A model generated the notes under the pieces. The model ran no database searches, was not told the DNA's origin, and saw only the letters and a program-made list of their open reading frames with translations. 33,610 nt of DNA from NCBI GenBank assembly GCA_902760645.1, contig CACWHC010000019.1, forward strand, positions 1-33,610, written 5' to 3'. Below are positions 7,456 through 29,179 of the stretch, piece by piece (the first letter of the stretch is position 1; the number at the start of each line of letters is the position of its first letter). Both the position numbers and the translations under genes were made by a program. The DNA comes from an uncultured bacterium (GTDB lineage: Bacteria; Cyanobacteriota; Vampirovibrionia; Gastranaerophilales; Gastranaerophilaceae).

Positions 7456-7578
7456 TTCCCTCTACCAACGGGAGAGGGAAGAATTGGTTAACGAAACGAA
7501 GTTGAGTTTAGCAATTCGGGTGAGGGGTTAATCTTTTCAAAACCTCTGAAAAATTACCCTCTCCCGATGGTAGAGGGA
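7456..7578. mobile_element. MITE-like palindromic element (about 123 bp)
   Basis: The outer 22-bp inverted repeats (7456-7477 and 7557-7578, CCCTCTACCAACGGGAGAGGG-type) match at all but one position. Between them, AATTG/CAATT and AAC/GTT form a second, weaker inverted repeat. There is no reading frame and no clear target duplication. It lies upstream of the sensor kinase and looks like a non-autonomous repeat. Confidence 0.75.
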
Positions 7579-28342: not shown

Positions 28343-28357
28343 TTTAAAATACATAAT

Positions 28358-28389
28358 AAAAAACTCCTGCCATACGGCAGGAGTTTTTT
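28358..28389 (+). terminator. Terminator of the glycine-rich prepilin operon
   Basis: A 14-bp perfect stem (28358-28371 with 28376-28389, AAAAAACTCCTGCC) has the loop ATAC and a T run. It lies just before the inverted repeat at 28402. Confidence 0.93.
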
Positions 28390-28401
28390 GTTCACCTATT
28401 A

Positions 28402-28887
28402 TACATAATATATGTTACAAACGCTATTTATCCAATTTTGTCATCCCGAACTTGTTTCGGGATCTGACCCATGATAAAATCTGATTATGGTCTACACAAA
28501 ACAATACTATGTATATATAATTACAAACTATCACCAAACAACATTTTATATTGGAATAACTAATAATTTAGAACAAAGAATATGGCAACATAAAAATAAA
28601 ACCTCTGATGGTTTTTCTTCTAAGTATAATTTAAACCGCTTAGTATATTATGAATGTTTTGATGATGTTAATTACGCAATAGCAAGGGAAAAACAGTTGA
28701 AAAACTGGCATAAACAATGGAAATTAAACCTCATAAGAGATATGAATCCGGATTTTAAGGATTTAAGTACTGATATTGGTTTAGAACCTGAAACAAAAGA
28801 AATCACATAACTCCACTGTGGTCAGATCCCGAAACAAGTTCGGGATGACAAAATTGGATAAATAGCGTTTGTAACATATATTATGTA
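28402..28887. mobile_element. GIY-YIG element with perfect 68-bp inverted repeats
   Basis: Positions 28402-28469 and 28820-28887 are perfect inverted repeats of 68 bp, compared base by base. They frame a 324-bp GIY-YIG gene, 486 bp in all. Each arm contains a smaller palindrome, ATCCCGAACTTGTTTCGGGAT-like, the REP-like core. No clear target duplication flanks the element. The perfect identity argues for a recent insertion or active repair. It is inserted between the operon terminator and the tRNA-Ser locus. Confidence 0.9.
28487..28810 (+). CDS. Small GIY-YIG nuclease-like protein
   Basis: The 107-residue protein is a single GIY-YIG domain: YYVYIITN (the GIY strand, Tyr8-Tyr10), FYIGITNN (the YIG strand, 21-23), then Arg31, His35 and the catalytic Glu68 in AREKQLKNW. 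It belongs to the short UPF0213/YhbQ-like family. Related short proteins occur next to CATCCCGAAC-like palindromes in many bacteria (my memory of the family, not checked here). It has no visible ribosome site and lies entirely between the inverted repeats. Its likely role is to cleave DNA at or near the repeats, which is inference. A DNA-repair role is an alternative. Confidence 0.85.
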   Translation: MVYTKQYYVYIITNYHQTTFYIGITNNLEQRIWQHKNKTSDGFSSKYNLNRLVYYECFDDVNYAIAREKQLKNWHKQWKLNLIRDMNPDFKDLSTDIGLEPETKEIT

Positions 28888-28903: not shown

Positions 28904-28925
28904 AAAAAACGGAGAAGAAGGGATT
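28904..28925 (-). repeat. Copy of the tRNA-Ser 3' end (22 bp)
   Basis: These 22 bp, of which the first 6 are A, are identical to 29087-29108: the acceptor 3' strand and T-arm 3' half of the tRNA-Ser plus flanking A. The copy ends at GGGATT, where the tRNA continues with CGAAC, and switches to GTCTTGAC. The break point is the same as at tRNA-Arg. The period is 183 bp. Confidence 0.92.
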
Positions 28926-29086: not shown

Positions 29087-29092
29087 AAAAAA

Positions 29093-29179
29093 CGGAGAAG
29101 AAGGGATTCGAACCCTTGGTGGAGTTTCCCCCACAACGACTTTCGAGGTCGTCACCTTAAACCGCTCGGACACTTCTCC
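29093..29179 (-). tRNA. tRNA-Ser (anticodon CGA)
   Basis: The minus-strand gene of 87 nt has the acceptor GGAGAAG with CTTCTCC and discriminator G. Its D-arm and anticodon stem ACGAC/GTCGT surround the loop CTCGAAA (anticodon CGA, reading UCG). The long variable arm typical of Ser is present (GTGGGGGAAACTCCAC-like), and the T-arm is intact. CCA is not encoded. A run of six T follows on the minus strand, a weak terminator. Its 3' end is duplicated at 28904-28925. Confidence 0.96.

Follow-up and report, generated by a model that had tools for sequence, protein, structure and literature searches.

A GIY-YIG nuclease gene between inverted CGTC-type REP hairpins: a candidate REPtron-like mobile unit in a Gastranaerophilaceae genome

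In the present study, a compact gene unit was analysed within a 33,610-nt stretch of DNA (hereafter, the window; GenBank assembly GCA_902760645.1, contig CACWHC010000019.1) from an uncultured Gastranaerophilaceae bacterium, whose genome (G000) comprises 1.96 Mb in 29 contigs. The unit carries one gene, encoding a 107-aa GIY-YIG nuclease, between two inverted hairpins of the CGTC type of repetitive extragenic palindrome (REP), and its best reading is a REPtron-like minimal mobile unit driven by this nuclease, with cleavage and transposition as proposed steps. The nuclease is probably the dedicated (cognate) enzyme of these REPs, which it would bind and cleave.

First, the structure of the unit is well defined. 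A repeat search of the window revealed two arms of 68 nt each, 100% complementary and 350 nt apart, and no comparable inverted repeat was found in the rest of the window. The gene is the only one inside the arm pair, and its product matches the Pfam GIY-YIG family (PF01541) over the full length (3.7e-17); both results confirm the original prediction, which had described such a protein as the sole gene between exact 68-bp inverted repeats. The CCCGAAC/GTTTCGGG palindrome that it had placed in both arms was also recovered, and as single-stranded DNA this palindrome folds far more stably than its shuffled counterparts (z about -4.6). The inner hairpin of each arm, of about 30 nt, reads TGTC-ATCCCGAA-CTTGT-TTCGGGAT-CT, and the outer 38 nt or so form a palindromic extension ending in TACATAATATATGTTA, a terminus shared with other copies of the element in the genus, the remaining extension being locus-specific. 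The original prediction had proposed that mobility be checked through other copies of the arm; the whole 68-nt arm is found in the genome only at the window locus, whereas its inner hairpin is dispersed genome-wide, both with and without the gene. Since an extension past the REP was seen only in the window, at a second copy on contig C1 and at a few other loci, and is not general among relatives, the length of 68 nt is a local trait and the general unit is the hairpin of about 30 nt. The two ends of the unit differ past the hairpin, with CTGACCCATG on the pre-gene side (A) and CTGACCACAGT on the other side (B). An artefact of chance, in which ordinary hairpin terminators of an AT-rich genome happen to lie by a small open reading frame, might be suggested by the terminator-like hairpins close by (28355-28392). 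This explanation has a negligible probability and is refuted by the 68 exact complementary bases, by the background of the hairpin descriptor (37/908 windows, 4% per flank) and by reversed-pattern controls, which gave 0 or 1 match per genome and strand.

The protein retains the conserved GIY-YIG residues Y10, Y21, G23, R31, H35, E68 and N87, and Y10, Y21, R31, E68 and N87 are invariant across the family alignments, as in members of the GIY-YIG superfamily. The nearest Protein Data Bank folds to its AlphaFold model (mean predicted local distance difference test score, pLDDT, 87) are UPF0213 BH0048, SLX1 and the UvrC N-domain, with 1zg2 and the SLX1 structures among the closest. Because of this likeness to SLX1, which cuts branched DNA, a hairpin or cruciform is a plausible substrate of the nuclease. 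The protein thus resembles in fold the UPF0213/YhbQ-like single-domain GIY-YIG proteins as well as SLX1, but it is about 28% identical to a single-copy group of the same genomes that is without flanking REPs.

Second, the association of gene and hairpin recurs among relatives. In 57 genomes of the window's order and class, two GIY-YIG groups were distinguished, one with 45-91% identity and 0-7 copies per genome and the other with about 28% identity and a single copy in nearly all genomes, which served as a natural control. CGTC-type hairpins flanked the gene on both sides at 25/40 first-group loci and at 0/26 control loci from the same order, and on either side at 32/40 and 1/26, respectively (Fisher p=5.6e-10). 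Among 80 relatives from more than 20 phyla, 57/79 loci had a hairpin within 300 bp on the upstream side and 59/77 had one on the downstream side, with 48/76 having both. The nearest hairpin had an outward-directed tag in 51/64 cases before the gene and in 48/68 cases behind it. In annotated records, the gene lies within a run of dRS3 (CGTC-1) repeats in Neisseria gonorrhoeae and between matching REPs in Azospirillum lipoferum 4B, Shinella, Aeromonas and Sphingobium. These results bear on the possibility that the protein is a host or defence nuclease which trims or polices hairpins or invading DNA, the REPs being terminators or regulators of its gene. Such a role would suit a fold near that of a branched-DNA nuclease and the apparently vertical retention of the related single-copy group, but it is highly improbable in view of the 0-7 copies per genome, the decayed copies, the varied sites, the presence or absence at orthologous sites and the dispersed gene-less doublets with the same ends, and the single-copy sister group itself has no flanking REPs on both sides. 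As a separate observation, another GIY-YIG gene start (MSEEKQYYVYILFNKKN) stands beside CATAATATATGTTA at G012:C29:16318 (L084); the hairpin there (GTCATTACGAG) is of another type, and the locus may represent a second subfamily of the unit.

Third, the REPs match each other and the protein. Within a locus, the stem on the left shares 7.07 of 8 positions with that on the right, compared with 4.71 after shuffling and a maximum of 5.36 in 5000 shuffles. Three REP classes were recognized (CTTGA loop, GCGAAGGC loop and a bulged GAG type), and their distribution on the protein tree, which has 96 columns and mostly unresolved deep forks and was used for its clustering alone, required 11 changes against a shuffled mean of 35.5. 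The nearest relative from another phylum had the same REP class in 75% of cases, compared with 36% after shuffling, and the type of REP dispersed in a genome corresponds to the clade to which the resident protein belongs (p=3e-4). The hairpin itself is supported by covariation: among 80 distinct REPs, five stem pairs lying free of the search pattern are at least 97.5% Watson-Crick, and three of them vary on both sides with compensatory changes.

Fourth, REP number follows the gene. By two search patterns, the order relatives carry 0-584 REP copies each; all 24 gene-positive genomes, including that of the window, have at least 8 (median 54), and the 33 gene-negative genomes have a median of 2, with 21 of them below 5 (Mann-Whitney 6e-7, Fisher 1.8e-7; p=1.4e-4 with one value per genus). 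A different explanation would be that RAYT/IS200-type HUH transposases (RAYT, REP-associated tyrosine transposase; IS, insertion sequence) or other transposases move the REPs and that the GIY-YIG gene is a passenger between two of them. The architecture is indeed like that of the REP/RAYT units (PMC2817692, PMC3116915, PMC8266576), and Y1 transposases (PF01797) are present in 17/57 order relatives. The passenger explanation is nevertheless quite improbable: the profile search detected no PF01797 transposase in the window's genome, none was over the cut-off in 16/24 gene-positive genomes, the window's included, even in those with 584, 401, 232 and 193 REPs, and the presence of Y1 transposases does not predict REP number (p=0.21). 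In addition, the survey of Di Nocera et al. 2013 reported no transposase flanked by CGTC REPs (PMC3733652), and recurrence in more than 20 phyla would not be expected of a passenger. RAYT was therefore rejected as the mobiliser, given the genome without PF01797 and the lack of tracking between Y1 genes and REP number. Separately, the order relatives G014, G022, G052 and G054 contain 78-124 REPs, and the nuclease gene of this group was not detected in them, which makes them candidates for gene loss or for a second enzyme.

Fifth, copies in the same genome and at orthologous sites carry signs of movement. A second full-length copy (C1:9145-9561) is 83% identical and broken by a frameshift and stops, and C2:60423-60611 is a unit copy with an internal deletion. 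The palindrome alone occurs at more than 12 places in the window's genome, many of them head-to-head doublets, and most gene-less doublets have one A-type and one B-type end (CTGACCCATGG and CTAGCCACAGTAAAA, or close variants), as in the gene unit; because both asymmetric ends are shared, these doublets look like non-autonomous derivatives of one unit. The deleted copy and the doublets that retain both ends without the gene recall miniature inverted-repeat transposable elements (MITEs), although here the full-length partner encodes a nuclease and no transposase, and no target duplication was seen. The sufB and sufC genes of A. lipoferum 4B are separated by the unit, whereas the suf operon is without it in A. 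ramasamyi, A. oryzae, Azospirillum sp. B510 and A. argentinense, and the insertion site is free of REPs in these relatives. Filled and unfilled sites, which the original prediction had asked to compare, therefore exist in Azospirillum, but a target duplication was not found, the sufB-sufC junction being too diverged for one to be read. At a site common to G000:C1 and the congener G012:C12 (flanks 89% and 99% identical, 150 bp each), the unit bounded by the CATAATATATGTTA ends has opposite orientations in the two genomes, with 93% identity once turned, and in G000:C1 the arm behind the gene has been overwritten by a copy of the pre-gene arm. The arms are therefore subject to inversion and conversion, and this may also explain the perfection of the 68-nt arms in the window; the nuclease might be the cause of both. 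The original prediction had likened the unit to REP/RAYT units with a GIY-YIG nuclease in the place of the transposase, and checks able to overturn this instead supported it: the palindrome is multi-copy with and without the gene, most relatives in more than 20 phyla show the association but the control group does not, and Azospirillum has filled and unfilled sites. Its further proposal of a minimal selfish or mobile element stands as regards the association and the presence/absence sites; the defining repeat, however, is the short CGTC-type REP rather than the 68-nt arm, and movement and cleavage themselves are something we infer.

A homing endonuclease was also considered, that is, REPs that spread by other means and a nuclease gene that homes into REP doublets by cutting and recombinational copying. 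GIY-YIG (PF01541) is a classical homing nuclease fold, a weak similarity to the NCBIfam group I intron endonuclease model was found (far under its cut-off), the arm conversion and inversion at G000:C1/G012:C12 would fit break repair between REPs, and gene unit and gene-less doublets have both ends in common. The free-standing I-TevI-type enzymes also share the catalytic domain and a selfish-looking behaviour, but the family of the window has neither an intron nor a separate DNA-binding domain, measures roughly 95-110 aa and is flanked by REPs. Homing would moreover leave the spread of the REPs unexplained in a genome without a Y1 transposase, and it is unlikely because REP abundance tracks the nuclease gene and not the Y1 transposases, REP class tracks the nuclease clade, and the sufB-sufC insertion occurred at a site that is REP-free in relatives. 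Beside these sites, it was observed that CATAATATATGTTA bounds a 401-bp element without nuclease or REPs at G003:C24:34052-34452 (L074); the CATAATATATGTTA-ended element may be an independent MITE family, used as a target or shared by the REP unit. REP doublets were also often observed right at the start of prepilin-like genes (...LAEVLITLGIIGVVAAMTLP) in the window's genome (C4:1107-1228, C5:88311-88428, C7:15553, C8:22503, C25:12694 and C27:3930-4054), where they may affect the leader of these multi-copy genes or their regulation.

The palindromes agree with the CGTC-tagged REPs, which were defined together with the GTAG REPs by Di Nocera et al. 2013 as a superfamily that takes in Neisseria dRS3 and Rickettsia RPE-4/RPE-6 and was reported without a dedicated transposase (PMC3733652). 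Common to both are a CGTC/TGTC tag, a stem of 8-9 bp from AT, a loop of 4-5 nt, a short C-tail (CCA commonest) and the predominance of head-to-head dimers; repeats of this superfamily also surround the gene in N. gonorrhoeae and A. lipoferum. The GIY-YIG gene between the repeats is what differs from the superfamily as described. In the window, the unpaired tag (CGTC or TGTC/CCTC in the superfamily) is TGTC at 28439-28442, mirrored at 28847-28850, and T or C precedes GTCA in nearly all relatives. The stem is ATCCCGAA/TTCGGGAT with the loop CTTGT, some relatives having longer, bulged ATTGCGAG types; the tail is CCA, CTA, CTC, CTT or CTG in nearly all of 68 loci (CTG in the window), and dispersal as head-to-head doublets is seen in the window's genome. 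REP/RAYT units (REPtrons, TnpA_REP) and the REP doublets forming hairpins (REPINs) are alike in having a small enzyme gene between inverted REPs and gene-less doublets in trans, but RAYT belongs to the HUH tyrosine transposases and its REPs carry a GTAG tag (PMC8266576), whereas the enzyme here is an unrelated GIY-YIG nuclease and the tag is TGTC/CGTC. With an enzyme unrelated to the HUH transposase (Y1_Tnp, PF01797), the chemistry must differ from that of RAYT. The unit is therefore not a REPtron by definition, yet by analogy it appears REPtron-like in its working, with an enzyme gene flanked by inverted REPs and further REPs in trans. Nor does it correspond to a classical DNA transposon or IS, as no transposase lies between the arms and no duplication was seen at the examined sites.

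Herein, we propose a mechanism in which the unit consists of two head-to-head CGTC-type REP hairpins around the gene for a putatively structure-selective GIY-YIG nuclease. The nuclease would most likely recognise the REP hairpin where replication forks expose single-stranded DNA, or in its cruciform form, and would cut beside it. The host would then repair and recombine the cut ends, and in doing so copy or move the REP-bounded unit. Gene-less doublets with the same two ends would be moved likewise in trans, and cutting and repair might also flip the unit and homogenise its arms. Binding, the position of cleavage and the route of insertion are inferred, and any particular route of cleavage and insertion is only tentatively suggested. 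Several points weigh against this proposal. GIY-YIG enzymes hydrolyse DNA and are not known to join strands, so that insertion would need host functions. No clean target-site duplication was found at the window, C1 or Azospirillum sites, and no exact empty site was found; in the window's genus the flanks have diverged too far, and relatives lack REP doublet sites such as C9:21207, though not cleanly. As 12/33 gene-negative relatives still have at least 5 REPs, the gene is not required for keeping REPs, and these REPs could derive from gene loss, missing contigs or another enzyme. Moreover, the 80 relatives are the best-scoring hits of a genome-wide search and not a random sample, the hairpin descriptor misses some REP types, roughly one flank in four or five is without a REP call, and the tree signal could in part be due simply to the gene and the REPs beside it being inherited together.

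The CGTC-type REPs form a widespread superfamily of small repeats in bacteria, and the 2013 survey naming them left the moving enzyme, if any, open; a specific enzyme is now proposed, and the class-by-class matching of REP and enzyme can be tested at the bench. We lean towards the view that hairpin repeats have, in a widespread class of mobile DNA, a single-domain GIY-YIG nuclease as their dedicated mobiliser instead of a transposase, and that CGTC REPs, dRS3 and comparable palindromes of bacteria are the non-autonomous offspring of this class. If so, REP-type mobile units would have arisen both with HUH and with the unrelated GIY-YIG nucleases, and a function would be found for many genes annotated merely as 'GIY-YIG nuclease family protein'. 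In the open papers searched, no literature tying GIY-YIG to REPs, REPINs, RAYT or dRS3 was found, and the REP sequence itself led to unrelated papers only; since bioRxiv and most subscription papers lay outside the search, the priority of this link is not certain.

Table 1. Coordinates of the features of the gene-bearing unit in the window
Feature	Position	Strand	Basis or remark
Left arm of perfect 68-nt inverted repeat	28402..28469	+	Repeat search, 100% complementary
Outer palindromic extension of left arm, end TACATAATATATGTTA	28402..28438	+	Not general in relatives
Left CGTC/TGTC-type REP: tag TGTC, stem ATCCCGAA/TTCGGGAT, loop CTTGT, tail CT	28439..28469	+	
Left REP, detail: tag directed away from gene; inner end A = CTGACCCATG	28439..28469	+	
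Gene for 107-aa GIY-YIG nuclease, conserved motifs intact	28487..28810	+	Pfam, alignments, AlphaFold model
Right CGTC/TGTC-type REP, reverse orientation, inner end B = CTGACCACAGT	28820..28850	-	
Right arm of perfect 68-nt inverted repeat	28820..28887	-	Repeat search
Outer palindromic extension of right arm, mirrors 28402-28438	28851..28887	-	

Two further repeats were observed. A second palindromic repeat, CCCTCTACCA(A/T)CGGGAGAGGG, which is unrelated to the CGTC-type REPs, occurs in the window at 7457-7478 and 7557-7578 and in the C5 and C27 flanks of the same genome, and it recurs near the same prepilin genes. Beyond the right arm, the 3' end of tRNA-Ser(CGA) is repeated directly and exactly over 22 nt (AAAAAACGGAGAAGAAGGGATT; 28904-28925 and 29087-29108), and this repeat bounds 183 bp and resembles an attachment-site duplication; parts of the bounded stretch belong to a dispersed repeat family with many copies in the genus.
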